NCBI GenBank assembly: GCA_027623555.1
Contig: JAQBSZ010000009.1
Coordinates: forward strand, 1 to 64,000
Direction: 5' to 3'
Source of the DNA: Pseudomonadota bacterium
Lineage (GTDB): Bacteria; Pseudomonadota; Gammaproteobacteria; Pseudomonadales; Pseudohongiellaceae
Length of the DNA: 64,000 nt
Position 1 is the stretch's first letter. The number at the start of each line of letters is the position of its first letter. Position numbers and translations under genes: made by a program. The notes beneath the pieces are model-generated. The model searched no databases. It worked only from the letters and a program-made list of their open reading frames with translations, and was not told the origin of the DNA. Of the stretch, positions 4,505 through 23,345 are shown piece after piece.

Positions 4505-6484
4505 CTATCGATCGCGAAGAGCATAGGCAATCAACTCCGGAGCATCTTCGCTTAGCACCGCTACAACGATGTACTGCCGTCCATCCTGACTGTAGGTCAT
4601 CGGTGCCGCCCGCGCCGCTGCCGGCAAAGGAATTGTTGCCAGTTCGGCGCCAGTGGCCTTGTCTCTCGCGACAAGCCATGCACCGTCGCTGTAGTTCTGG
4701 GCATGCACCAACATAGTTGGTGTGACCAGAAGCGGATTGCGACCACCACCGCCTAAAGGTGGCAGGTCGATTCCTGCCAACGCCGGGTGGTTCTCAACAT
4801 TCGGTGCCCGGTCGCCGTTCGCTACCCGCCAGACGATGTCTCCGGTATTCATGTCGATGGCGGTAATCGTATTGTAGGGGGGCTTCAACAGGGGCAGTCC
4901 CTGGGGACCGCGGGTGCCGCCATAAGAGAAGCGCCTGAAGCGTAAGGTGGATTCAGACGGGTCTGTCTCTCTCACGATGGGTACAGCAATCGCGTCGGAA
5001 GAGGGCACATAGAGCATGCCGGTTTCCGGGTCGACTCCCGCACCCATCCAGTTTGCGCCACCACCGGCGGCGGGTCGCAAGATAGTGCCGCGGTTGCCGC
5101 CGATTTCGGACAGGGTGATCGGTGTGAACAGGGGTCCGTAAGTATATTCGCTGATAATGGCTTCCGCTTCGGCGCGCAGCTCCGGCGTGAAATCAATAAG
5201 ATCATCGACGCTCAGACCCTGCCCCTCAAACGCTGGCGGTTTAGTTGGAAACGGTTGAGTCGGGGACAGGCGCTCGCCTGGCAGCACCGGTGTCTGCGGT
5301 ACTGCTCTTTCCTCGATCGCCCATATCGGTTCGCCGGTGGCCCGGTCGAAGGCGAACACAAAACCCTGCTTGGTGACTTGTGCCAGCGCCTTGATCTGCC
5401 TTCCCGCCACCGTCACATCGAGCAGATTAGGTGCCGCCGGCGGGTCGTAATCCCAGATGCCATGATGGACCATCTGAAAATGCCAGCGACGTTCACCGGT
5501 CAGGGCATCGACCGCAACGATGCTCTGACTGAACAGATTATCGCCGGGGCGGTTGCCTCCGTAGAAATCATCGGTCGGCGCATCGATTGGCAGGTAGACC
5601 AGGCCCAGTTCGGGATCGGCGCTCATCATTGACCAGACGCCGCTGTTGCCAGTGCGGCGCCAGGATTCCTCTTCCCACGTATCGACGCCGTATTCCCCGG
5701 CGAGGGGAATCGTGTGAAAGGTCCATACTGTGGCACCGGAGTGCACATCGAAACCTCGCACCCACATCGGCGGTCGTTCTCTTAATAGGGGGCGGGCCTG
5801 GGTGATCTGTGAAGAGACGACGATATCCCCAATCACGATCGGCGGTGACACGACGGCTACCGGTTGTGCTCCCGTCCAGTCCAGCGCATCTCGCGTCGCC
5901 CGTGGAATGCCCACCGACAGATCGACGCGACCACCGTTGAACGCCGCATCGGGCAGGCCGGTCTCGGCATCGAGTGATATCAAGTAGCCGTCATTAGTGC
6001 CGGCGATAATCCTGGCTGCTTCGCCATCGCTCCAGTACGCCACGCCGCGGGTGTGATAGCCGATAGGATTAATCGGTGACCCGGACAGATACACTTCCGG
6101 GTTATAGGTCCACAGCGTTGCACCGGTAGACGCATCGAGGGCAGCGATCTGGTTCATTGCCGTGATGATGTAGAGCCTGTCAGCAATCTTCAGCGGAGTG
6201 CCCTGGAAGTTATTGATGTTTACATAGTCATTCACTTCCTGCAGGGCTTCGATGTCGAGTTCGGCATCGACCGAGGTCCAGCGCCAGGCGATTTCCAGGT
6301 CAGTAAAATTGTCAGGATTGACCTGATCGAGGGGGGAATACTTGGTGGAACCGGCATCGCCGCCATAACTGGGCCAGTCGCCGGACTGGGTGCCATACTG
6401 AGCGCTGGCAACGCATGTGAGCCCGCCGAGGATTACTCCGGCAAGTGCATTAAATGCAGTGAGAGTTCTATTTTTGAATTGCAT
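4505..6484 (-). CDS. PQQ-dependent dehydrogenase, glucose dehydrogenase-like (exported)
   Basis: 659 residues from the ATG at 6484. A longer frame would begin at a TTG at 6508, but the ATG has AAGAGG eight bases upstream and starts a clean signal peptide (MQFKNRT... GGLTCVASA-Q), so it is preferred. The mature protein is an eight-bladed quinoprotein propeller starting with DWPSYGGDAGSTKYSPLDQ. The motif HHGIWDYDPPAAPNL (about residue 330) corresponds to the catalytic Asp region HHDLWDMDVPAQP of membrane glucose dehydrogenase; GGRNPLL and NTGDIVWR motifs follow. It lacks the N-terminal membrane anchor of Gcd and has no CxxCH haem site, so electrons must leave to a separate carrier. The substrate is unknown (sugar or alcohol). 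It is followed, 64 bp away on the same strand, by a paralogue. Confidence 0.88.
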   Translation of the reverse strand: MQFKNRTLTAFNALAGVILGGLTCVASAQYGTQSGDWPSYGGDAGSTKYSPLDQVNPDNFTDLEIAWRWTSVDAELDIEALQEVNDYVNINNFQGTPLKIADRLYIITAMNQIAALDASTGATLWTYNPEVYLSGSPINPIGYHTRGVAYWSDGEAARIIAGTNDGYLISLDAETGLPDAAFNGGRVDLSVGIPRATRDALDWTGAQPVAVVSPPIVIGDIVVSSQITQARPLLRERPPMWVRGFDVHSGATVWTFHTIPLAGEYGVDTWEEESWRRTGNSGVWSMMSADPELGLVYLPIDAPTDDFYGGNRPGDNLFSQSIVAVDALTGERRWHFQMVHHGIWDYDPPAAPNLLDVTVAGRQIKALAQVTKQGFVFAFDRATGEPIWAIEERAVPQTPVLPGERLSPTQPFPTKPPAFEGQGLSVDDLIDFTPELRAEAEAIISEYTYGPLFTPITLSEIGGNRGTILRPAAGGGANWMGAGVDPETGMLYVPSSDAIAVPIVRETDPSESTLRFRRFSYGGTRGPQGLPLLKPPYNTITAIDMNTGDIVWRVANGDRAPNVENHPALAGIDLPPLGGGGRNPLLVTPTMLVHAQNYSDGAWLVARDKATGAELATIPLPAAARAAPMTYSQDGRQYIVVAVLSEDAPELIAYALRDR

Positions 6485-6493
6485 TAAAGTAAT

Positions 6494-6525
6494 CCTCTTT
6501 ATAACCAAACCTCTTTATAACCAAA
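6494..6525 (-). repeat. 16-bp tandem duplication covering the RBS
   Basis: The 16-bp unit at 6494-6509 is repeated exactly at 6510-6525. Each copy carries AAGAGG on the minus strand, so the quinoprotein gene starting at 6484 has two Shine-Dalgarno sequences, only the proximal one being correctly spaced. The duplication also creates the in-frame TTG that lengthens the reading frame. Confidence 0.8.
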
Positions 6526-6548
6526 CAACAAAAGACCATTATCAACTG

Positions 6549-8411
6549 TTAGGGTAAGCTAAAACTGACAACGTTGTCTGTCGCCGTGATTACCACGTAT
6601 TGCTTGCCATCGCTTCCTAAATACGTCATCGGATTGGCATTACCCCGTCTCTCCAGGCGCTGTTCCCAGATAATCTCGCCGCTGCTTGCGTCCAGGGCGC
6701 GGAAGTAATTGTCATCGGTAGCGGCAATAAATAACAGGTTGCTTGCGGTGATCAGGGCAGCGGCACGACCGGGTCTGCCGGTACGCTGCTTGTCTGCGGT
6801 CAGCCCTTCGGTGATACCGAGCGGGATCTGCCAGACAATGTCACCGGTAGCGGTATCTACGGCCGTGAGTTTTCCCCAGGGTGGTTTCTGGCAGGGCATG
6901 CTTCTGCCGTCCAGGCGTACATCGAATCCGGCGGGCCTTGGACCGCTCAGCACATAGGGCAGATCCGAGCCGGGTTCGGCGTCTTCCATCCATCCGAGGG
7001 TGCCGATGTCGGCGGCAAACACATAGACATAACCATTGTTCGGGTTGTGGGCCACGCCACCCCAGTTGGGGCCGCCCGCCAGGCCAGGGAAGAGCAGGGT
7101 AGTCTGGCCACCGGTACCGTCGGGACGATAGGTCCAGGGCGTGAAGGCCCCGGCGTTGTAAATCTCGCCGACTGATTCCACCAGTTCTGCACAGGCCTGG
7201 GCATGTTCGGCATTGGTATCCGCTGCGGTTACCAGGTCGGCGGGATCGTAGCTTACACGCGCCATCGCAGCGGGTTTAACCGGTATTGGCTGGGTTGCAA
7301 AAGTTTCTTCACCCGGCACGTTACTCTGTGGCATCGGCCGCTCTTCGACACCATAAATCGGTTCGCCGGTTTCACGATTGAGTACATACAGGTATCCTGA
7401 CTTGGTAGTGACGCCGAGAGCAGGAATCGTCCTGCCGCTGCGAGTTACATCAAACAGCGCAGGAGGCGCCGGCGGATCATGATCCCATAGATCGTGATGA
7501 ATGGTTTGAAAGTGCCAGGCGTATTCACCGCTGTGAATATCCACGGCAACTAACGAGTTTGAATACAGATTCGAACCGGCGCGATCACCGCCATAGCCAA
7601 ACGGGATAGGAGAGGCTAACGGAATATACAGTTGATCGCGTTCTTCATCGACAGTGAAGTAGAACGGCCAGGCATTTGCTCCCAGGCGACCGACCCAGCT
7701 ATCCCCTTCCCAAGTGTCATGACCGGCACTGCCGGGCTGCGGCACGGAACTGAACTCCCACAGCCTGGCGCCGTTCTGCGCACTGAAGGCCCGTGCATTA
7801 CCGATGCCACCAATCGCTCCTCGTGGGGTGTTTGCCCCTACTACGATGACATCTTCATAAATCATCGGTACTGAAATGTACGGCACGCCAAGGTCTACCT
7901 CACCCGATTCACCAAACTCCCTGTCTACTGTGCCGGTTTCTGCATCCAGTGCCACCAGTCGGTCGAACGCCGTGAAGAAGATGCGTGGTGAGACGCCTCC
8001 CTGGCCCGGCCAATAGGAGACGCCGCGGCGGGATGGAGCATTGACGCCTACTGAATGACTCCAGAGTTCTTCACCGGTCACAGAATCGAGCGCCACCACC
8101 TGGTCGACTGTCGGCAGGTACATCACTCCATCGACAACGATAGGAGTGGCCTGCGAGTTTGGATCCCGAGCATTTTCCGCCTCATCGTTACGAAGCGAAT
8201 AGCTCCAGGCCTGTGTCAGGGATCCCACATTGCCTGCGGTAATCTGATCAAGCGCAGAAAAACCAGTACCGGCAGGATTGCCGCGAAACATCGGCCAGTC
8301 GTTGGGACTGGTAGTAGCCATTGCCGAGTCGGAGTCTTGTGAACAACTGACGTTGAAGGCCAATAGCAGGATGAGTGCGCTCAAAGAGCAGGACTTGTGT
8401 AGGGAGTTCAT
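6549..8411 (-). CDS. PQQ-dependent dehydrogenase, glucose dehydrogenase-like lipoprotein
   Basis: 620 residues. The N-terminus is a lipoprotein signal (LILLLAFNVSC, lipid-modified Cys at about 24), so this paralogue is membrane-tethered, unlike the soluble one downstream. Propeller blades begin at DWPMFRGNPAGTGFSALDQ. The catalytic region reads HHDLWDHDPPAPPALFDV (about residue 315), very close to the HHDLWDMD motif of Gcd-type glucose dehydrogenases. Two Cys occur far apart (AQACAELV and MPCQKPPWG). No haem-binding CxxCH. Start at 8411 has GGAGCGC a few bases upstream on the minus strand. Gene order suggests co-transcription with the gene at 4505-6484. No PQQ synthesis genes are in the window, so the cofactor is made elsewhere or scavenged. 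Confidence 0.88.
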   Translation of the reverse strand: MNSLHKSCSLSALILLLAFNVSCSQDSDSAMATTSPNDWPMFRGNPAGTGFSALDQITAGNVGSLTQAWSYSLRNDEAENARDPNSQATPIVVDGVMYLPTVDQVVALDSVTGEELWSHSVGVNAPSRRGVSYWPGQGGVSPRIFFTAFDRLVALDAETGTVDREFGESGEVDLGVPYISVPMIYEDVIVVGANTPRGAIGGIGNARAFSAQNGARLWEFSSVPQPGSAGHDTWEGDSWVGRLGANAWPFYFTVDEERDQLYIPLASPIPFGYGGDRAGSNLYSNSLVAVDIHSGEYAWHFQTIHHDLWDHDPPAPPALFDVTRSGRTIPALGVTTKSGYLYVLNRETGEPIYGVEERPMPQSNVPGEETFATQPIPVKPAAMARVSYDPADLVTAADTNAEHAQACAELVESVGEIYNAGAFTPWTYRPDGTGGQTTLLFPGLAGGPNWGGVAHNPNNGYVYVFAADIGTLGWMEDAEPGSDLPYVLSGPRPAGFDVRLDGRSMPCQKPPWGKLTAVDTATGDIVWQIPLGITEGLTADKQRTGRPGRAAALITASNLLFIAATDDNYFRALDASSGEIIWEQRLERRGNANPMTYLGSDGKQYVVITATDNVVSFSLP

Positions 8412-8481
8412 GTGCGCTCCTTAATGTGCACCTTATGCAGAGATTGATTTTTTAGTGTACGTGAAAGCGTCGCGCTTGTAT

Positions 8482-9471
8482 TCAGGGCCTCGCTACTATC
8501 ATGGCGAAGTGTGGTGACAGTTCTCCAGTGGCTACCAGCTTGTCTTCCGTGTCGAAGATTGCCTGTAGTGCCTGCATCGATTTCGGATCGCGTTCCACGA
8601 AATTACCCGCTATGTCATGTAACAGAAACTGCATGAGAGTACCTCCGCAATCGTTGAATTCCTTGATGGTGAAGTGTTGCTTTACGGCGGCTACGATCTC
8701 AGCGGAATGAATCGCTTCAGATGGATCCACGCGCTCAACTTCTTCTGGATTGGGAAAGTAGATATGTTCTCTTATCTGGCCGCGATCATGTTCGGCGTGG
8801 GAGTGGCGGTAGCATGCTGGAATCTCGAAAAAGGTTTTTTCTAAGACTTCTTTTTCCTTATCGCTCAGTGCGAATCGGTTAGGTCCGATATACTCATTGA
8901 TAAACAGATAGCCATTGTTCTTCAAGGCGGCTGCACACTTGCTCAATATGCCATCCAGGTCTGACATGTGGTGCAGGGAGGAATTGAAATAGATAGCATC
9001 ATAATCGGTGCCTGGAAAATCTGTCGTTTCCACATTGCAGACACTGTAGCGGATAGTATCGGTGAGCCCCGCCTCGTCGGCTTCCCGCTGGGCAATCTCG
9101 ATGCGCTTCGGAGCCAGGTCGATGCCATCGATCTGTTTCGCAGTATTCAGGCTGGCCAGGTGCCGTTCCAGCACGCCGTCGCCACTGCCGATGCTGAGTA
9201 CTCTGTCAACAGGGAGGCTATTTTTCCTGCGTCCGAGAAAACGATCAAGCAGTGAACGTGATCCGAGAAAATGCTGCACACTGAAATCGACCCAGGACCC
9301 ATATCTGCGGCCTCCGGCGGCCTTGCGTTGATAGCGTCGATTGATCGCCGGATTGGCAAGCCAGTAGGTCTCACCAAAAAAGGTCTCATCCGTGTGTTCG
9401 TCCCAGTAATCGGCAACTCTACTGTCTGTACTGTGCTGTTCCTGGTCAACCACTGCTGTATTGCCTGCCAT
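8482..9471 (-). CDS. Class I SAM-dependent methyltransferase
   Basis: 329 residues, cytoplasmic. The Rossmann-type SAM fold is visible: motif I VLSIGSGDGVLERHLA (about 92-107), the acidic residue ending strand 2 in IDGIDLAPKRIEIA, then YDAIYFNSSLHHMSDLDGIL (motif post-II/IV, about 155) and LKNNGYLFINEYIG (motif V). An N-terminal segment (DYWDEHTDETFFGETYWLANPAINRRYQRKA) resembles that of small-molecule methyltransferases found near polysaccharide or lipid genes. The substrate cannot be told from sequence. It lies on the same strand as the quinoproteins but 70 bp upstream of the nearest one. Confidence 0.8.
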   Translation of the reverse strand: MAGNTAVVDQEQHSTDSRVADYWDEHTDETFFGETYWLANPAINRRYQRKAAGGRRYGSWVDFSVQHFLGSRSLLDRFLGRRKNSLPVDRVLSIGSGDGVLERHLASLNTAKQIDGIDLAPKRIEIAQREADEAGLTDTIRYSVCNVETTDFPGTDYDAIYFNSSLHHMSDLDGILSKCAAALKNNGYLFINEYIGPNRFALSDKEKEVLEKTFFEIPACYRHSHAEHDRGQIREHIYFPNPEEVERVDPSEAIHSAEIVAAVKQHFTIKEFNDCGGTLMQFLLHDIAGNFVERDPKSMQALQAIFDTEDKLVATGELSPHFAMIVARP

Positions 9472-9522
9472 TGTCGTGAATAAGTTGCGGCTATTGTAGC
9501 GATAATCGCGCCGAAAAAGGGA

Positions 9523-9609
9523 GGGGACACCTACAATTTAACAACTTAATAACTTGATTGCCAAACGCTGCCTATTGGGTTATTAAGTTGTTAAATTGTA
9601 GGTGTCCCC
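9523..9609. repeat. Long-hairpin repeat, copy A (31-bp perfect arms)
   Basis: Arms at 9523-9553 and 9579-9609 are exact reverse complements over 31 bp; the outer end reads GGGGACACCTACAATTTAAC. The 25-bp loop is not shared with copies at 31977-32073 and 56318-56408. The unit sits between two minus-strand genes. It lacks the T-run of an intrinsic terminator. Confidence 0.9.
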
Positions 9610-9659
9610 AAAAAAGGCTTTGCCACTCGCGTGCGCCTCCTTTTTTACGGTTCGGCCTT

Positions 9660-11357
9660 TTATGGTTTCTCTTCCAGTTCGATAAATTCCAGCCCATCCA
9701 CACCAGCTTCGTTTGTCAGGCGCATATAGACATCATACTCGGTACTGTCTGGTGGTGAGATATTGATTACCTTGACGCGCGGAACGTAAAGTAGAGATTG
9801 GTTCGCATCGAAGGCAGCACCATGTTGCCAGATTGGCGTCGAGCCGGTTTCGTTCAGTTCCTGAAGGGTAAACAGCGAACTACCTGCTGCGGGTGGTGCC
9901 AGCACGCCGGCGTAGGTAGTGTCGATTCCCAGTGCCTGTAAGGACTCGAATGAAAGCTCAGCTGTCGCGCTGTCGAAGGAATTACTGCCGGTGATGGCAA
10001 TTGCATTGTCGCGCTTGAACGTCGGCAGGGTGGTGGACACGGTCAATCCCGGGTCATAGTTACAGTTGTCCTCATCTTCTGCTGTGGCAAGACAGGTCAA
10101 CGCCAGATCCACTGGATTCGGTTGCAGGCTACCCTGCACCCAGTCGCTTAACTCATGCCAGGCAGCGAGACCTTCATCGATGGTAAACCCGCAGTGGCTG
10201 GGACTGTTTGAGTCATTCACAATGGCGACAGTTAACTGATTCGTGGGCAGGGCATTAATCAGTGCGGTTTGATTCTGTACTTTTACCAGACCGTCGTGGG
10301 AGGTATGAATGGAAACGACCCTGGTGCTACCGATGTCACCCGTGGGTGTGTAGTTCGCCAGCAGCGCGGCACTGCTTGAGGGCAGGGCAATAGTGCGCAG
10401 GGCGGCCTGGTTGACTGAGCCATCGCCGTAATCGATGCCAATATTGTCGAAGGGGAGCAGCCCATTCAATTGCGTTTCGTCATTGATGAGTCTGGGTATC
10501 TGGAAGACGGCGTACCAGAGGTTCAATCCCATGAAGAAGACGTTGCGGGTGTCGGAAGTCTCGAGAATTTCTTCCAGTCGGTCGGCGGCATCCGGGTTAT
10601 TGAGTTCCCAGACGAAGACTTCGAGTGGATCGTTCTCGTCGATGAGCAAGCGCGTGCTGATGCCCGTGCACTTATCGAGTGAATCCAGAAAATCGACTTC
10701 GCCGAACAGTAACTCGGGTCGCTCGTACCAGGGCGTGGGTAACCCGGCGCCGGGAACACTAGCGCATACTGCTTCGTAGATCGTGCGCAGGTCAAACGCC
10801 TCATACCAATTCACGGCACCGGCCACGGCACCACACAGTATCAGTGCGCCATCGGGCTCGGGAACCAGGTCCGATTCCAGGTCTCGCATAGTAACGATGC
10901 CACCGAGTGAAGCGCCCACTATATAAAACTGCGTCGGTGCGCCCTGACCCTCGTTAGCCGCAACACTGAGAAACTGCTCGTACAGTTCACCATTGGATAC
11001 CTGGGAGTCGAACACCGCCCAGCCGGTCTGACTATAACTGGAAGCCGCCATGGCGAACCCTTCCGCGAGAATGGTTTCGGCATAGGGGCCCAGCCCGGGT
11101 TCGTCCTGGACGTCCCCGGTGTAATAGCCATCCCAGAAAGGATTGAGAAGTGACAAAAGGTCGGTGGGCTCGAAGCCAGTCATAAAACTCTGGAAGCCGT
11201 GGTTCCAGATCACCAGGCCGTCACTCGCCACCCAGCCTGCTGGTTTGGCAATGGTGTAATAGGCGCCGCTGGCAGTCTCACCGTACCAGACTGGATAGCA
11301 GGCACCGTTTTCTGTTTCGTACTGGGCTTCGGCACAATTCCAGGCAAGAGCTGGCAA
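9660..11357 (-). CDS. Exported alpha/beta-hydrolase-like protein, signal peptide frameshifted
   Basis: 565 residues if translation begins at the TTG at 11357, but that is probably not the real start. In another frame an ATG at 11395 encodes MRTHIGRLLILAA; adding one T near 11356 would join it to LPALA-WNCAEAQYETENG and give a textbook signal peptide of about 18 residues. The body has an oxyanion-type HGF (VIWNHGFQSF), the nucleophile elbow GASLGG (Ser at about 169), and a later GD and H region (SPSHCGFTIDEGL) that may complete the triad. The last 170 residues match nothing I recognise. Probably a secreted esterase or lipase. Either the gene is damaged or the assembly lost one base. Confidence 0.7.
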   Translation of the reverse strand: MPALAWNCAEAQYETENGACYPVWYGETASGAYYTIAKPAGWVASDGLVIWNHGFQSFMTGFEPTDLLSLLNPFWDGYYTGDVQDEPGLGPYAETILAEGFAMAASSYSQTGWAVFDSQVSNGELYEQFLSVAANEGQGAPTQFYIVGASLGGIVTMRDLESDLVPEPDGALILCGAVAGAVNWYEAFDLRTIYEAVCASVPGAGLPTPWYERPELLFGEVDFLDSLDKCTGISTRLLIDENDPLEVFVWELNNPDAADRLEEILETSDTRNVFFMGLNLWYAVFQIPRLINDETQLNGLLPFDNIGIDYGDGSVNQAALRTIALPSSSAALLANYTPTGDIGSTRVVSIHTSHDGLVKVQNQTALINALPTNQLTVAIVNDSNSPSHCGFTIDEGLAAWHELSDWVQGSLQPNPVDLALTCLATAEDEDNCNYDPGLTVSTTLPTFKRDNAIAITGSNSFDSATAELSFESLQALGIDTTYAGVLAPPAAGSSLFTLQELNETGSTPIWQHGAAFDANQSLLYVPRVKVINISPPDSTEYDVYMRLTNEAGVDGLEFIELEEKP

Positions 11358-11587
11358 GCAGCGAGAATCAGCAATCGTCCGATATGAGTGCGCATAGCCA
11401 GTTTTTTCTCAGTAATGAATGCCCGGCAGGACTGATAAGTACAAGACCTTCAAAATACTAACGGTTATCTGAACGATAACTGAATAGCTGGTGGCAAGGC
11501 ACTGGATTGGATTCCAGAAAAGAGGGCTCAGAAGGGAGCCCGATAAAGTTAGTAAGTCATTATGCGGCGGATTGGGATAGCCGATGA

Positions 11588-13309
11588 TCAAAGCAACTGA
11601 GGATTCAGTTTCACTTCGGCGAGATAAAGCAGGTATTCCTGGAATTCGCTCATTGCAGTCAAATTGACACTGAGGTTCTGGATCAAGTCATTGACTTCAT
11701 AGAGGTTGCTTACAAACAAGCTGCGATTCGGTAACAGGTAAGTTCGCACCTGTTCGATGGTCTCGAGGTCTTCCTGGAATGCTCTATCGAACTGATAGTT
11801 ACGCTGTACCGGCATCTGAATGTGATAGCGACAGTTTCGGTATTCACTGATATAGAATTCCTCACAAAATTTGTCCTGCAGAACGACTCGTTCATTTTCA
11901 CTCAGGCGATCGCGGAAGCCCGCGTCGACTTCGTGGAAGTATTCGCCACTGGCGAGATAAGTTCCACCATCGTCATAATAGCTATGACCCACCGAGTAAA
12001 TATAAGGAGAGCCATCCCGGTTGATTACCAGCGGCCAGAGACTCCTTACGGCTACGTTCTGCGGTACTTCGATCAGCACGTTTACGCGTTGACCTCTACT
12101 CAGTTCGCCCTCGGATAAACTCCAGAATTCATTGAGCTCCAGTGTATTGCCATTCAAGGCATACACATATTCTACATTTCTCAGGTTTTCCTCGGCATTG
12201 GCTGCATTGAAGCCATAGCCTGAATAGTCCACCGCAATTCTCACCTGGTTGCCAGGGGAGTCGCTGGTTTTCATGCTTATTCGCACTGAGCCATAGGCTG
12301 TGTCCAGTGGTCGATCTTCAATAAATTGCAGGTTGAGTAGGTTGCCTGCCAGTGGATAACTGCGCTCTATTGTCTCCTGCTGGTACACATCCCAGGCGTT
12401 CAGAAGGAAGAACATGGTGGCAACCAACATGCCGGCGGGTATTACGGCGCCTACTTTCAGGCGGCGGGCAATCTGAAAATGTGGGTTCGAGAGATAATAG
12501 TCGCGAAAGTAGATGGCCAGACCGAGCACCACCAGGTACATGGCAGCGATGAACAGCAGTAAGGCGATTAGCGTGGGGAAGACTCTTGCGTTAAAGGCCG
12601 CATACATGATGATGCAGGCTGTGGTGGCAAACCCCAGCAACACGAACGCTACAATATTTTTCATGATGCGCAGATATCCACCACTGCGCTTTCTAAAGTG
12701 ATTGGCAATAACCGTGAACAATGCACCAATCAGACTGAAGGGCAGGAAAATAATCCGCTGAATCTGGTGTGCGGCGCCTTCAGACTTTCCACCCACTGCG
12801 GCGATCGATTTCGCAGTCTGTGCTTTCCCTTGCGCTGCCAGCACGGCATTACGGCTGGTATTGGAATCGAAGGACATCCAGAAAACCAGGTAGAGGATTA
12901 TGCCCAATCCGGCTAACGGGGTTAACAGCAGAAAGATGAGCCGAACTATAAATGCCGGAACGCGAAACCTCATAGCCAGTCCGGCGCAGACTCCGGCGAT
13001 GATTTTGTTTTGTTGATCCAGGAAGAAGCGACGCGGAGTTTCAATCGCTTCAATATCGCTGTCGATGAACCCAACCTGTTCGATTACCTCGTTTACCTGT
13101 TCGATCGAAATGGCTTTCTTGTCATCGCTGCGGAATGCATAGAGCAATTCCGCGATGCGCAGTTCAATATCATTCAAGATGTCAGCCGCTTCTTCTTCGG
13201 CGGACAGCTGCACGTGGATTTTTTTCAGATAAGCATGCAGTACTTCATAAGCCTCCTCATCTGTCGAGAAGACCTGACCGGCAATTTCGATGCTGACGAC
13301 CTTATTCAT
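11588..13309 (-). CDS. PspC-domain membrane protein
   Basis: 573 residues. Residues 1-90 are soluble and acidic (MNKVVSIEIAGQVF... IELRIAELL). A PspC domain follows at about 94-147 with the hallmark NKIIAGVCAGLAMRF and a membrane helix. Three or four further membrane segments lie between about 185 and 310, then a long extracytoplasmic tail (about 320-573) rich in beta-strand-type sequence. This layout (short N-terminal domain, PspC, multi-pass region, periplasmic tail) is common in PadR-linked envelope stress proteins. The start codon lies inside the end of the padR gene (8-bp overlap), so the two are translationally coupled and both should respond to the palindromic operator at 13677-13709. 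Confidence 0.87.
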   Translation of the reverse strand: MNKVVSIEIAGQVFSTDEEAYEVLHAYLKKIHVQLSAEEEAADILNDIELRIAELLYAFRSDDKKAISIEQVNEVIEQVGFIDSDIEAIETPRRFFLDQQNKIIAGVCAGLAMRFRVPAFIVRLIFLLLTPLAGLGIILYLVFWMSFDSNTSRNAVLAAQGKAQTAKSIAAVGGKSEGAAHQIQRIIFLPFSLIGALFTVIANHFRKRSGGYLRIMKNIVAFVLLGFATTACIIMYAAFNARVFPTLIALLLFIAAMYLVVLGLAIYFRDYYLSNPHFQIARRLKVGAVIPAGMLVATMFFLLNAWDVYQQETIERSYPLAGNLLNLQFIEDRPLDTAYGSVRISMKTSDSPGNQVRIAVDYSGYGFNAANAEENLRNVEYVYALNGNTLELNEFWSLSEGELSRGQRVNVLIEVPQNVAVRSLWPLVINRDGSPYIYSVGHSYYDDGGTYLASGEYFHEVDAGFRDRLSENERVVLQDKFCEEFYISEYRNCRYHIQMPVQRNYQFDRAFQEDLETIEQVRTYLLPNRSLFVSNLYEVNDLIQNLSVNLTAMSEFQEYLLYLAEVKLNPQLL

Positions 13310-13661
13310 TGGTTTGCACCTTCGTTAGTTTTTTGGTTCCGCTGCGTATCAATTTGACTGACTCATTGATGTCCTGCCAGGCGCTGTCCAGTTCGTTCAA
13401 TAATTTCCGACCAGGTTCGGTGAGGGAGTAATACTTGCGTGGAGGACCCGATTCAGATTCTTCCCAGCGGTATTGCAGCAAGCCGGCCTTCTGGAGTCGA
13501 TTTAGCAGAGGGTAGAGCGTCCCGTCAGTCACCAGAAGGTTGGCTTTCTTCAGTCGGTCAATCAGCTCTGCGGTATAGACCTCGTTATTCGCCAGCAGGC
13601 TGACAATACAGAATTCGAGAAACCCGCGGCGCATCTGAGTAATGGTGTTCTGTGCTTGCAT
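13302..13661 (-). CDS. PadR-family transcriptional regulator
   Basis: 119 residues. A winged-helix PadR domain fills the protein: MRRGFLEFCIVSLLANNEVYTAELIDRLKKANL..., then the recognition-wing segment VTDGTLYPLLNRLQKAGLL and RKYYSLTEPGRKLLNEL, which are signature PadR features. The C-terminal dimerisation helix is short (subfamily PadR-s2). It is the first gene of a two-gene operon with the PspC protein and lies 16 bp from a 33-bp palindrome. PadR proteins usually repress their own operon, and that is the likely arrangement here. Confidence 0.93.
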   Translation of the reverse strand: MQAQNTITQMRRGFLEFCIVSLLANNEVYTAELIDRLKKANLLVTDGTLYPLLNRLQKAGLLQYRWEESESGPPRKYYSLTEPGRKLLNELDSAWQDINESVKLIRSGTKKLTKVQTNE

Positions 13662-13676
13662 GGGGGCTGACTATAA

Positions 13677-13709
13677 CGCCTAGTACCTTGCAGTGCAAGG
13701 TACTAGGCG
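13677..13709. promoter_or_regulatory. 33-bp perfect palindrome, probable PadR operator
   Basis: The left arm CGCCTAGTACCTTGCA pairs with TGCAAGGTACTAGGCG around a single central base (13693). It lies directly upstream of padR. The TACCTTGCA-n-TGCAAGGTA core resembles operators of PadR proteins paired with PspC-like genes. Likely autoregulatory site overlapping the operon promoter. Confidence 0.75.
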
Positions 13710-13763
13710 ATAAAGATGCTTAGTCGAAGGAATAGGGGGGAAAATAGCTATCTTTTCAGCGGC

Positions 13764-15260
13764 CTATATATCCATCACCCGCTCGATATCGTAATCCAGC
13801 TGTGGTGGTTTGGTGACCAGCGACACGCCGATGAACAACACCATGGAAGAGGCGAAGGCGACGAGTTGGCCACTGATGGCATAGGGGAAAGTGTAACCAG
13901 CCAGCTGTGAAACAAAATTTATCAGCAGTGCCGCGACGATAGCGGTAACTGCGCCGGGCACCGTTGCGCCTTTCCAGTTGAGTCCCACCGCCACCACCGG
14001 AAAAATGGAAGCAGCGAACGTGCCCCAGCCGAAAGCACCGAGAATGGCCACCAGGGTGGCGTCGCGGAAGTGGGAGTACAGGGCAAAGCTGGCCGCCACG
14101 ATTGCCAGCAATACTGTCACAACTCGAGCCCAGAACAATTCGTTCTTGATGCTATGGCCGCGAATTGCCTTGGGAATGTCGTGGATGATGGCGGCGGTGC
14201 CGATGTTCAGGAAGGCATCAGAGGTCGACATGATGGCGGCAAACAAGCCGGCAAACACCACACCCGCCAACAGCGGGTTCGCGAAAGCAGTCAGAAACAC
14301 CGAGGCCGCATCGTCCGGTAATGCCAGGGGATCGACTACGCCATCGATGACCGCCGCGCGCATGACGATGCCGATGGATATCCACAGCAGCGCTGCCATG
14401 ACGTAGCCGAACAGGGACATGGGCAGAATGCTGCGATTGTCCGCTATGTTCTTGTTCATCATCATCTTGGTAATCAGATGGGGCTGCCCGGCAAGACCCA
14501 GACCGAATACGAAGAACCAGCCGAGCGATGCCATGATGCCGGCTACACCATAAGGCATGATGGCCTCAGCGTCATCGGCGAGAATGATCGAAGTCGCTTC
14601 CTGCATGCCGCCGTCGAACACCGACATCGCGGTAAACAGGATCAGCGTGCCCGCCACCATCATGATCATGCCCTGCACCACATCGGTGTACACCGAGGCG
14701 ATAATGCCGCCGGTGACGCAATAGAAGATCAGTACCGCCGATGAAATGGCTACGCAGGTAACCAGTCCCACATCGGCAAACATTTCGGTGCCAGAGAGTA
14801 TTGCCTGCATTACTACGGCCATGGCCAGGATCTGGGTAGCGAGATAGCCCATAACCCCGAGTACGATTGTTATGGCAATCAGGAACCTGACCGCTTCGCT
14901 ACCATAACGTGCCGCAACAATATCGGGCAGTGAGATACAGTCACGCAGTTCGGCGATCATGCGTATACGCTTGGAGACCAGAAAGAAGCCAACCGCATAA
15001 CCGGTAGATGAAATGACAACCATCCAGAACGAGCTGACGCCAATGGAATAGACCAGGCCGGGTCCACCGACAAAACCGAAACCGCTGAGTGTGCTGGAGA
15101 ATAGCGCCAGGGCTACTACGATAGGGCCGAGGCCCCGTCCGGCGATGAAGAAGTCGCTCGAGTTGTGAGTGCGACGCATCGCCCACAAGCCGGTGATGAT
15201 GCAGAACAGCATGTAAACGACGACAGCGCCGACGATAATCTCCTGCCTGAATGCCTCCAT
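13764..15260 (-). CDS. Sodium:solute symporter (SSS family)
   Basis: 498 residues with about 13 hydrophobic helices. The SSS signature is present: NSSDFFIAGRGLGPIVVALALFSSTLSGFGFVG at residues 33-65 (helix 1 unwound region), later YAVGFFLVSKRIR and the helix 8 region AAIMSTSDAFLNIGTAAI with the adjacent Ser/Thr that bind Na+. Family members import proline, pantothenate, short carboxylates or sugars; the substrate is not readable here. The ATG at 15260 has GGAG about nine bases upstream, and the preceding small membrane gene ends 3 bp before it, so the two are one operon. Confidence 0.9.
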   Translation of the reverse strand: MEAFRQEIIVGAVVVYMLFCIITGLWAMRRTHNSSDFFIAGRGLGPIVVALALFSSTLSGFGFVGGPGLVYSIGVSSFWMVVISSTGYAVGFFLVSKRIRMIAELRDCISLPDIVAARYGSEAVRFLIAITIVLGVMGYLATQILAMAVVMQAILSGTEMFADVGLVTCVAISSAVLIFYCVTGGIIASVYTDVVQGMIMMVAGTLILFTAMSVFDGGMQEATSIILADDAEAIMPYGVAGIMASLGWFFVFGLGLAGQPHLITKMMMNKNIADNRSILPMSLFGYVMAALLWISIGIVMRAAVIDGVVDPLALPDDAASVFLTAFANPLLAGVVFAGLFAAIMSTSDAFLNIGTAAIIHDIPKAIRGHSIKNELFWARVVTVLLAIVAASFALYSHFRDATLVAILGAFGWGTFAASIFPVVAVGLNWKGATVPGAVTAIVAALLINFVSQLAGYTFPYAISGQLVAFASSMVLFIGVSLVTKPPQLDYDIERVMDI

Positions 15261-15263
15261 GTA

Positions 15264-15806
15264 TTACTGCTCCGAACGCGTTCGTTCTTGGGCTTTCTCT
15301 GACAAGAGTTGCTGAAACTTTTCTTCGTCTTGTGGTGTGTAGATGTATTTACGAAATCCCAGACTATAGATGATGACCAGAGGAATGGCGCCCAACCAGG
15401 TTCCGTAGAGTTGCCAGGCCGTTGCGGTGGGAAAGCCCATGAAGTATCCGGTGCGTCCGGTATCAAGGTACTGTGTATGGCCTGAATACATTTGCCAGCC
15501 GATGAAAAGTGTGAACAACATCGTGCCGCCCATGTAGACGAAAAGGTCGGTTGTGCGATGTCGTTCAGCTATGCCTAGCAATGATAATAATATGATCTGG
15601 CTTAACAGCAGGCATTGAAAGGTGAAGCCGAGCAAGCCGATGTGCTCAAGTCTGGCTGCACCATCGCCACCAATCTGCATACCCGGAAAATCAGGATGGG
15701 CAGCTCCGCCGGCATTGGCAACCGGTTCCGCCAGAGAGATGGCCAGCAGAATGCCGGCCATGAGCACCGCGATTGCGAAGATTATGTAGATCAGCTTGCT
15801 TCGCAT
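15264..15806 (-). CDS. Four-helix membrane protein, symporter partner
   Basis: 180 residues with hydrophobic segments at about 5-26, 55-78, 88-107 and 130-150 and a charged cytoplasmic tail (TPQDEEKFQQLLSEKAQERTRSEQ). I do not recognise a named family. The 3-bp gap to the symporter gene resembles small accessory proteins encoded just ahead of SSS transporters (for example YjcH before ActP, DUF485), but the sequence is not that family. It is likely co-expressed and may assist the symporter. Confidence 0.7.
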   Translation of the reverse strand: MRSKLIYIIFAIAVLMAGILLAISLAEPVANAGGAAHPDFPGMQIGGDGAARLEHIGLLGFTFQCLLLSQIILLSLLGIAERHRTTDLFVYMGGTMLFTLFIGWQMYSGHTQYLDTGRTGYFMGFPTATAWQLYGTWLGAIPLVIIYSLGFRKYIYTPQDEEKFQQLLSEKAQERTRSEQ

Positions 15807-15842
15807 AATGCTCTGGTAGGTAAGCTGGGCTTCAATGCGCGC

Positions 15843-17669
15843 TTAATTGGCTAGCTTGAATACGTAGAGTTGGCCGCCTTCGGGGATAGAGATATCGCCA
15901 CCCACGAATCCGGCCAGCGTCTGAAAATTACCCGACCCGATCGCCACGTAGGATTCACCGTCGATCTGGTAGGCCACCGGTTGGCTGCGCACTCCGCCAC
16001 CCAGCCTGAAGCGCCACAATTCTTCGCCGGTTTCAGCATCCAGCGCAATCGCGTGGCCAGTCTGACTACCGGTAATGACCAGGCCGCCGGCAGTGCTCAA
16101 GGTACCCGCCATCATTGGCTGAGGATCAAGGTAACGCCAGCGTACTTCACCTGACTGGTAGTCCATCGCCGTGATGTGGCCGTAAGAAGCCCCACTGCTG
16201 GCATCCACGGAAATTGGCATTCCGCCGGTGAACTGTAATCCTTCAACGTGGATGCTCAGTCCTTTCTGCATGAGCTGACAGCTTTCGATCACCGGTATGA
16301 AGGCAAGGCCGAGCTGCGGATTGAGTGAGCCGGACACCGAGCCGTTCATGCCACCCATAACGCCGGGACAAACCCGCATAGTCGGTTCCTCAGTCGGGAA
16401 AGCTTCCGGGTTGATAACCGGCCGGCCATTCGCTTCCATCGATAGCGCCCAGTTGAGCTGCTCCATGTAGCTGGTGGCACGGATAAACTCGCCATTCTCT
16501 CGGTTGATGGCATAGAAGAAGCCATTGCGATTAGCCTGTACCAGCGCCTTGACTGTTGCGCCGTCCTGTTCGAGATCGACCTGGAACAGATGGGTATTGC
16601 CGTCGTAGTCCCAGACATCATGGGGGGTGAACTGGTAATACCACTGGCGTTCTCCGGTATCGGGATCGAGCGCCAGTATGCTGTCCGAGAACAGGTTATC
16701 ACCGAGGCGGGCATCGCCATTCCAGTCCGGCGAGGGATTGCCGGTGGTCCAGTAAAGCAGGTCGAGCTCGGGGTCGTACGCGCCAATAGTCCAGGCTGGG
16801 GCGCCACCGGTCTCGTAAGAGGTTCCCGACCAGGATTCATAACCGGGCTCGCCAGCGGCAGGCACCGTGTAGTGACGCCAGACCCGCTCGCCGGTGTTTA
16901 CATTGTAGGCATCGAAGAAGCCCCGCACACCGTATTCGCCACCGGCAATACCGATGATGGCCATATCCTTGACGATAAGAGGGGCCGAGGTTGCGCTGAA
17001 GCCGCGGTAGTACTCGATGATTTCGCTGTTCCAGAGAATCGCACCTGACTTGCGGTCGAACGCCATGATCCTGGCATCCAGTGTCGCCATCAGCACCTTG
17101 TCATCGACTATAGCCACACCGCGGTTGGCAGGACCACAGCACAGGCGCAGGTCTGCCGGTTGCGGATGGTCATAACGCCAGTGCAACTCACCGGTGCGCG
17201 CATCGAGGGCAAACAGTCGGTTATAGGAAGAAGTCACATACATGATGCCGTCATAGATTACCGGTGATACCGAAAACTGACCCAGGGTGCCGGTGGGGAA
17301 TCCCCAGGCAAACTGCAGGTCGCCGACATTTTCCGGAGACAGCTCAGTAATCGGGCTGTGGCGGGTGTTTGAGTAGTCGCCACCGTACTGTAGCCAGCTA
17401 CTGGCACTCAAGGGTTGCGAGAGCAGCGCATTGCTGACCGGCCCCAGGCCATCGCCGATAGGGTCTGCGTTGATCCAATGGCTCTGGGTAATTATCAGCG
17501 CCTCGCCCGGCTCCTGAACATCGACCGGAACGGCCCCGGCGCGGTCGTCTGCAACTGTGGACGGCGCCATGGGTGCGGGCTGTGCGGTCTGTGAAGAATC
17601 CGGGCTACAGGAGACAGTTAACAGCAATACTGCGGCGAATAAGGAAACAAACGATTGGCGTAATTGCAT
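15843..17669 (-). CDS. PQQ-dependent alcohol dehydrogenase, DYD (lanthanide-type) lipoprotein
   Basis: 608 residues from the ATG at 17669, which has GGAG eight bases upstream and opens a lipoprotein signal (LLLTVSC, Cys21); a longer frame reaching 17759 lacks this. Type I alcohol dehydrogenase features: vicinal Cys177-Cys178 in RLCCGPANRG, Glu245 in GGEYGVRGFFDAY, Asn311 in TTGNPSPDWN, and the catalytic region TPHDVWDYDGN with Asp354. Two residues on is Asp356. In XoxF, ExaF and PedH this second Asp coordinates a lanthanide, while calcium enzymes have Ala, Ser or Thr. So this one is predicted to need a rare earth. There is no haem domain. The enzyme would be anchored to a membrane and feed electrons to a cytochrome not encoded nearby. 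Confidence 0.88.
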   Translation of the reverse strand: MQLRQSFVSLFAAVLLLTVSCSPDSSQTAQPAPMAPSTVADDRAGAVPVDVQEPGEALIITQSHWINADPIGDGLGPVSNALLSQPLSASSWLQYGGDYSNTRHSPITELSPENVGDLQFAWGFPTGTLGQFSVSPVIYDGIMYVTSSYNRLFALDARTGELHWRYDHPQPADLRLCCGPANRGVAIVDDKVLMATLDARIMAFDRKSGAILWNSEIIEYYRGFSATSAPLIVKDMAIIGIAGGEYGVRGFFDAYNVNTGERVWRHYTVPAAGEPGYESWSGTSYETGGAPAWTIGAYDPELDLLYWTTGNPSPDWNGDARLGDNLFSDSILALDPDTGERQWYYQFTPHDVWDYDGNTHLFQVDLEQDGATVKALVQANRNGFFYAINRENGEFIRATSYMEQLNWALSMEANGRPVINPEAFPTEEPTMRVCPGVMGGMNGSVSGSLNPQLGLAFIPVIESCQLMQKGLSIHVEGLQFTGGMPISVDASSGASYGHITAMDYQSGEVRWRYLDPQPMMAGTLSTAGGLVITGSQTGHAIALDAETGEELWRFRLGGGVRSQPVAYQIDGESYVAIGSGNFQTLAGFVGGDISIPEGGQLYVFKLAN

Positions 17670-17829
17670 GGCACTACTCCACGTGGTTCTTCTATTTATA
17701 AGGGACTGGGTTACGCAGGACTGGGGAATGCCAGGTTCATCCAGCGAATAGCAGAGCATAAACAGCCCACCATCCTTAGTCTAGTCGCAGAGTGGATGGA
17801 AAAGCGCTAAATGCCAAGGTTCGGGCTTC

Positions 17830-22229: not shown

Positions 22230-23345
22230 TTGAACTTTGTATATAACACATCGCCGTTTCCCATCAGAGAAGATATTCCTCCAGCGTATCGCGTGTATTG
22301 GCAAGCGCTGGCCAATGCCGGTTCCTGGTGGACTGGTGCGCAGCGTGTGGCGATTGCGCAGGAAGTGCGCAATGCAAGCCGCTGTGGGTTTTGCAGCGAA
22401 CGCCGTCAGGCACTTTCTCCCAACAGTGTCCAAGGTCAGCATGACAGCAGCACTGAATTATCAGAATTCGCAATCGATGCGGTACACAGAATCATCACTG
22501 ATCAGACCCGCATAACGCAGACCTGGGTGGATGAGTTGGCTGAGAACGGTTTGAGCAATGAAGCCTATGTCGAACTGGCCGGAGTAGCAGTCAGTGTATT
22601 CAGCATTGACGAGTTTAATCGTGCACTCGGCATCCCGCTTGAGCCCTTACCCGAGCCTGTGCCTGGCGAGGCTTCCCATTATCGCCCGCAACAGGCGGTG
22701 TTAGGCACGGGTTTCGTGCCGATGCTGCCACCCGATGGCGATACCGGAAACGAAGCAGGCATCTGGCCCGGCCAGCGATCCGCGAATGTTCTGCGGGCTT
22801 TCACACTGGTGCCCGATGCATTTCGCGAGTGGCTCGCCCTTTCCAATGTCCAGTACATTCCCGTTGAAAACATGGCGAATATGTTTAAGCCCGACGGGCG
22901 CTCGATCGATCGCATGCAGATAGAGCTTATTGCCGGGCGAGTATCCGCCATCAACCAGTGTTTCTACTGAACCAGTGCTCATGCCTCGATGCTCCGTGCG
23001 AGCGCGATGACTAACGACACCGTTGTGAATATTCAGGCGGTAAACGGTGCTGTATCTGGCGCAGACATTGGCGTGCAGTTCGGAGCAGAGCTGCTGTACT
23101 TTGCAGAAAGTGTTGCCGCCCATGATGATGACGGCTTGCAGCAAGCGCGGGCCAGGCTGCTGGAAGTGGCTGGACCAACAGTATTAGTGGACGCGGCGGG
23201 AGTGGCGGCAAACTTCCAGCGCATGGTGCGTGTCGCCGATTCGATGGGAATTCCAGTCGATGACATGCAGACAGAACTCGGGCAACAGGTGCGGGAAGAG
23301 CTGGATCTGTTTCGGTTCGCTTCGGCGCAATATTCAACGAATTAG
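22230..23345 (+). CDS. AhpD/carboxymuconolactone-decarboxylase-like protein, probable selenoprotein (UGA at 22968-22970)
   Basis: 371 residues if UGA at codon 247 is read through. The frame starts at TTG 22230 (no ATG available; GGACGGAAA upstream), is open to TGA at 22968 and stays open after it to TAG at 23343. Around the UGA the sequence is RMQIELIAGRVSAINQCFY-U-TSAH, an exact E-x11-C-x2-U-x3-H copy of the AhpD redox motif, with Glu232, Cys244, Sec247 and His251. A first CxxC (Cys52-Cys55, SRCGFCSE) lies in an N-terminal AhpD-like half. CMD/AhpD proteins with Sec at this site are known, including a family called alkylhydroperoxidase-related (seleno)proteins. A candidate SECIS follows. The alternative, a nonsense mutation, would have hit precisely the redox Cys, which is less likely. 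Confidence 0.8.
22968..23005 (+). promoter_or_regulatory. Candidate bacterial SECIS element
   Basis: Downstream of the UGA, GCTC (22991-22994) pairs with GAGC (23000-23003), extended by a U-G wobble, around the loop CGTGC (22995-22999). The loop begins 25 bases after the UGA and has G as its second base, meeting the usual bacterial SECIS rules. A competing pairing (22975-22980 with 23000-23005) exists, so folding should be computed. Confidence 0.5.

Follow-up and report, generated by a model that had tools for sequence, protein, structure and literature searches.

The gene at positions 22230–23345 on the plus strand of the analyzed window (64,000 nucleotides; contig JAQBSZ010000009.1 of the Pseudohongiellaceae assembly GCA_027623555.1) is assigned as a further member to NF041238, an already catalogued selenoprotein family. 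The decoding of its in-frame UGA codon (22968–22970) as selenocysteine (Sec) is supported by the conservation of this codon among homologues, the cysteine of distant relatives at the same column, a constrained downstream hairpin, the genomic Sec machinery and the co-occurrence with selB; the selenoprotein call of a preliminary description, made from the DNA letters alone, thus holds. The reading as a whole, i.e. an NF041238 selenoprotein with UGA translated as Sec by means of the hairpin and a two-half AhpD-like enzyme acting on an organic hydroperoxide, is considered fairly probable. What is new for this family, reported in 2005 as hypothetical, is family-wide nucleotide-level evidence for a selenocysteine insertion sequence (SECIS), a strict selB link within the order as sampled, and a two-half fold that is predicted to resemble Sestrin and holds two redox pairs. 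Since the family is already catalogued, the novelty is modest; what remains of interest is the design with two centres, similar to Sestrin, and the restriction to Sec.

Reading frame and family assignment

As had been described, the frame is open except for the single TGA at 22968–22970: it extends from TTG (start unproven) to TAG (23343–23345) and, with the UGA read through, encodes 371 residues, 246 of them before and 124 after the UGA. The second-half redox motif C244-F-Y-U247 (codons 22959–22970; UGA as Sec247) forms part of the AhpD motif E232-x11-C244-x2-U247-x3-H251, which the preliminary description had recognized and of which every named position is invariant in 26 aligned sequences. 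The first AhpD-like half has its dithiol motif, C52-x2-C55, encoded at 22383–22394 (both Cys invariant; n=26 and n=21).

The standard-code listing of open reading frames (ORFs) yields two ORFs, 22230–22970 and 22989–23345, as would be expected if the TGA were a true stop, whether in a pseudogene, through a sequencing error or between two separate proteins. This explanation is extremely improbable given the recurrence of this TGA in all 52 distinct loci, which stem from many assemblies, the equal coding constraint on both sides, the nucleotide constraint beyond that of the protein, and the selB link. Indeed, the difference rates relative to the homologues at codon positions 1/2/3 were alike before (0.32/0.23/0.63) and after the TGA (0.33/0.25/0.62); because of this, both flanks are judged to evolve as coding sequence, and the earlier statement that the downstream part is protein-like was borne out. 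A window scan for frames broken by one TGA, with a Cys at a distance of three residues on one side or the other, gave three candidates, this gene among them. By eye, the first 20 residues lack a hydrophobic signal-like stretch, and the product is therefore assumed to be cytoplasmic.

The translated protein matched NCBIfam NF041238 (AhpD_rel_CFYUT, “alkylhydroperoxidase-related (seleno)protein”) with 455.5 bits (cut-off 175) over residues 12–364, covering profile positions 1–356 of 357; the AhpD core domain TIGR00778 was recognized at residues 225–271 (29.5 bits, cut-off 27.8). Pfam CMD (PF02627, cut-off 23) scored 35.1 bits for the read-through product and 15.2 bits for the pre-UGA piece, and was absent on the post-UGA piece; the profile search pointed first to AhpD and peroxidase-related proteins. 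Chaperonin matches in the PDB sequence search (E 0.0045–0.0066, profile positions 41–112) were taken as chance. The membership rests on the NF041238 match together with two published descriptions: NF041238 with its CxxU corresponds to “AhpD-related protein (hypothetical protein 1, Sargasso Sea metagenome)” (PMC13188914), and the hypothetical protein 1 family, described in 2005, comprised four sequences with a CXXU motif; a SECIS was predicted for it, and no evidence as to function was reported (PMC1088965). As the family is already catalogued, a pipeline using the NF041238 model would presumably not have to split the gene into two hypothetical proteins, the outcome that had been anticipated for standard annotation.

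Conservation of the UGA codon

The related-locus search yielded 25 loci, the records of which name Gammaproteobacteria, Pseudomonadales, OM182, Halieaceae and similar metagenome-assembled genomes; in the family of the window, homologue matches were present in 23 of 137 genomes. The homologue alignment drew on 49 rows that covered 200 query residues or more (L002, the matches of less than 200 residues L045, L046, L070 and L071, and short pieces of L067/L072 were omitted), and removal of 12 redundant rows left 37 non-redundant homologues. TGA occupies the same column in every one of these, and likewise in 52 of 52 distinct loci in the larger tally. Among the 390 genomes of the order set, each of the 19 matches above the NF041238 cut-off (from 17 genomes) holds exactly one TGA; 17 of these loci, one being the window, were fetched, and in all 17 the TGA falls on the CxxU column (15 recognized by their motif, plus L079 as CYYU and L081 as CFYU). 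If weaker matches are included, 151 of the 390 genomes are hit (the 17 gene-positive ones among them), the weaker ones mostly being open frames over the second half.

In 14 of 14 sampled distant relatives (13 from the order set, one from the window's own genome), Cys occupies the Sec column within an exact E-x11-C-x2-C-x3-H motif. Close Cys forms above the NF041238 cut-off were found in none of the 390 order genomes, and a search at E 1e-25 of 369 class and 398 phylum genomes (overlapping sets) matched only the window's own genome. On the basis of these two patterns, the wider superfamily has Cys at the Sec column, and the close family, as sampled, only Sec; that close Cys forms are missing from the sampled genomes suggests a reaction for which selenium matters. 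Contrary to a strict “Sec always”, the hypothetical protein 1 row in Table 2 of PMC1088965 (4, 7, 0, 5) is tentatively read as including Cys homologues.

L041 contains a second in-frame TGA at homologue codon 144 (5430–5432), mostly a Gly codon elsewhere; since it recurs in no other of the 37 homologues, an error or mutation of a single base is more probable than a second Sec. The homologue L067/L072 (G089, contig C16) is interrupted by a frameshift close to the UGA, and its two parts match in different frames. L038 carries two copies of the selenoprotein gene on one contig (1584–2672 and 6414–7511, approximately 3.7 kb apart), both with TGA.

SECIS-like hairpin

The core of the SECIS-like hairpin is positioned at 22991–23003 on the plus strand, with the stem 22991–22994/23000–23003 (GCTC/GAGC) and the loop 22995–22999 (CGTGC; loop G at 22996) beginning 25 nucleotides past the UGA. 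Numbered from the U of UGA as 1, bases 24–27 pair with 33–36 (GCUC/GAGC in the window) and enclose the five-base loop 28–32. In the tally of 52 distinct loci (frameshifted L072 left out), the four stem pairs are standard in 51, 50, 52 and 52 loci, respectively; the loop G29 is kept in 52 of 52 and U30 in 50 of 52. The stem changes consist of ten G-U for G-C, one U-G, and one two-sided replacement of C-G by U-A (L073); as they are few, covariation proper is thin.

Synonymous constraint provides the stronger evidence for the hairpin: in 36 sequences, z reached 41 for codons 0–12 and 46 for codons 6–18 after the UGA, compared with 12.6 in the UGA-straddling window and at most 10.1 in every other window (the null model shuffles codons within each sequence and ignores kinship, so that moderate positive z values are background). 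In the same sequences, a Leu codon is CTC in 35 of 36 and the following codon is CGT or AGT in all 36. The third base of codon 10 past the UGA is G in 36 of 36, although the encoded residue may be Ala, Val, Gly, Leu or Thr; selection on the protein does not explain this. Of the 52 loci, 51 have G as the last base of codon 10 and one has A, in which the pairing partner is changed too.

Selenocysteine machinery and selB co-occurrence

The genome of the window (4.5 Mb, 97.5% complete) contains tRNA-Sec (65.3 bits, above cut-off; anticodon TCA according to ARAGORN) and selB, selA and selD (407.5, 557.9 and 285 bits, each above cut-off). The preliminary description would have abandoned its call had selB/selC been lacking, or had no Sec or Cys homologue existed at the UGA column; the machinery is present, and both kinds of homologue were found (52/52 TGA, 14/14 Cys). 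In the order set, selB occurred in 17 of 17 gene-positive genomes versus 40 of 373 gene-negative genomes (Fisher p 6e-16, kinship uncorrected), and in the family set in 21 of 23 versus 70 of 114 (p 0.003).

Readthrough of the UGA as another residue, e.g. Trp or Cys by suppression, is highly unlikely: nothing specific speaks for it, and it is opposed by the presence of tRNA-Sec, selA, selB and selD, by the confinement of the gene to selB-bearing genomes in the order set, and by the SECIS-like hairpin.

The selD gene of the window's genome (contig C12, L107:698–2965) encodes a 755-residue fusion with a Pyr_redox_2 domain ahead of the selenophosphate synthetase domains AIRS/AIRS_C; fusions of selD with a pyridine nucleotide-disulphide oxidoreductase domain are a known kind (PMC2398784). 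In two genomes of one sister genus (L103, L104), selB precedes the selenoprotein gene by 1.3–1.4 kb on its strand, and two ORFs separate them; in G147, it lies approximately 1.8 kb downstream, likewise on the same strand.

Predicted fold and proposed mechanism

The models predict a single chain made up of two AhpD-like halves, i.e. a fused pseudo-dimer resembling Sestrin. AhpD-family folds were matched by the model of the whole protein and by that of the first half alone; for the latter, the best VIA-align Z was 8.1, with rows 1–16 all belonging to the AhpD family and the remaining rows at 2.8 or less, a Z of this size being rated doubtful for helical folds by the program. With neither model did Foldseek reach a match of E 0.001 or below, and its probabilities were relied on instead, together with the VIA-align Z. 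An hhalign comparison of the two halves reached a probability of 1.4% over 17 columns, though C52/C55 were aligned on C244/U247; the AhpD kinship of the first half is seen in the predicted fold and hardly in the sequence.

In the proposed mechanism, SelB with Sec-tRNA(UCA) would decode UGA 22968 as Sec, directed by the hairpin 25 nucleotides downstream. Sec247 would attack an oxidized substrate, by default most likely an organic hydroperoxide, aided by Cys244 and by E232 and H251, which we take to act as AhpD-type relay residues; resolution may occur as a Cys244-Sec247 selenenylsulfide, to be reduced by a cellular dithiol or by the C52/C55 pair of the first half. We infer a peroxidase/thiol oxidoreductase activity for the product. 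The roles of E232 and H251 are modelled on the relay residues of AhpD, in part after PMC4674687.

Several observations weigh against this reading. The classical AhpD model TIGR00777 (20.7 bits, cut-off 191.95) and the peroxidase-related model TIGR01926 (46.1 bits, cut-off 81.8) were matched but stayed below their cut-offs. The enzyme class is supported by the CMD domain of the read-through protein, NF041238, TIGR00778 and the AhpD-family folds, and the preliminary description came close to it. Of the two CxxC/U halves that had been claimed, the first has the invariant C52-x2-C55 but lacks the rest of the AhpD motif: there is no Glu 12 residues before C52, and the relay His is replaced by Arg or Lys in the alignment rows inspected by eye. 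Two of the 23 gene-positive family genomes (G055 and G059; 75% and 89% complete) were without a selB match. The stem-loop with a G in its small apical loop, described beforehand, is present and comparatively conserved as expected of a bacterial SECIS, but the single-sequence fold of the window hairpin was not significantly stable (z −0.51; 58 of 200 shuffled sequences folded equally well or better), the minimum-energy fold varies among relatives, and Rfam gave no match in the window at gathering score; support for the hairpin is comparative, and the window sequence folded alone does not single it out.

Two other functions have to be weighed for a selenoprotein of this architecture. It might serve as a thiol-disulfide carrier that reduces a partner such as a peroxiredoxin and does not act on a small substrate, as M. 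tuberculosis AhpD reduces AhpC (PMC11429811); the two CxxC/CxxU pairs of the family would suit such a role, yet no peroxiredoxin gene was recognized adjoining the gene in the inspected loci and the gene neighbourhood is not conserved, and the carrier is regarded as unlikely. Reductive dehalogenation or another thiol-dependent reduction, like that of the AhpD-fold debrominase Bmp8, is less probable still, though dehalogenation is a serious competitor: other AhpD-family structures score equally within error (6k40 13.5, 2oyo 13.2, 2prr 13.1), the profile search ranks AhpD and peroxidase-related proteins first, no halogen gene was recognized among the partly identified adjoining genes, and a literature search on Bmp8/debrominase/AhpD returned nothing. 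The hydroperoxide-reducing enzyme is retained as the preferred reading.

Gene neighbourhood

Genes of pyrroloquinoline quinone (PQQ)-type dehydrogenases directly adjoin the selenoprotein gene in L023, L026, L028/L029 (two contigs of one assembly) and L030, and are one gene away in L103 and L104 (Pfam basis for L023, L026, L028 and L103). Since the window's own genome (G000) has 111 PQQ_2 (PF13360) matches (matches, not genes; several in the window at 4505–17759, minus strand) and some of the loci are closely related, these neighbours were set aside as a clue to the substrate. In L103 (6038–6421) and L104 (6386–6778), the gene of a DUF6152 protein (Pfam, L103) immediately precedes that of the selenoprotein, and genes for cytochrome c and a PQQ-type dehydrogenase follow downstream, all near selB.

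Comparison with known systems

From NF041238 and the Sargasso Sea hypothetical protein 1, nothing separates the present member: they are alike in the full-length match, the CxxU motif and the predicted SECIS. TIGR01926-type proteins (2prr, 2oyo, 6k40, 3c1l) share the E-x11-C-x2-[C/U]-x3-H motif and the fold of the second half, but comprise approximately 150–200 residues in one domain and contain Cys. The AhpD-like 1 and AhpD-like 2 selenoproteins of the Global Ocean Sampling (GOS) data are likewise marine, AhpD-like and of CxxU type; they differ in that Cys forms outnumber Sec forms, 902 to 299 and 207 to 70, respectively (PMC2398784). YciW, described as a fused AhpD dimer (PMC11429811), matched the first half faintly (E 0.005 with the whole protein; 2 of 21 members, best E 0.0047), and the YciW-related NF053654 scored 16.6 bits, far under its cut-off of 310.

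Sestrin likewise consists of two AhpD-like halves in one chain, an arrangement that the predicted fold reproduces at 9% identity to human Sestrin2 (5t0n, 5dj4); Foldseek alone ranked Sestrin2 chains, at a probability of 0.75 or less. The redox residues differ: according to PMC4674687, Sestrin has one Cys in the first half and none in the second, whereas the present protein has CxxC in the first and Sec in the second half. In the second half of Sestrin, an electronegative hinge (DDYDY) replaces the catalytic residues (PMC11429811); here, this half bears E-x11-C-x2-U-x3-H. Tentatively, and against the odds, the family could be what corresponds to Sestrin in bacteria, but dependent on selenium: the first-half CxxC of a fused AhpD dimer would be the built-in dithiol reductant of the second-half Sec centre, so that reductase and peroxidase (or dehalogenase) sites are united in one chain, and Sec would be kept wherever the family is present.
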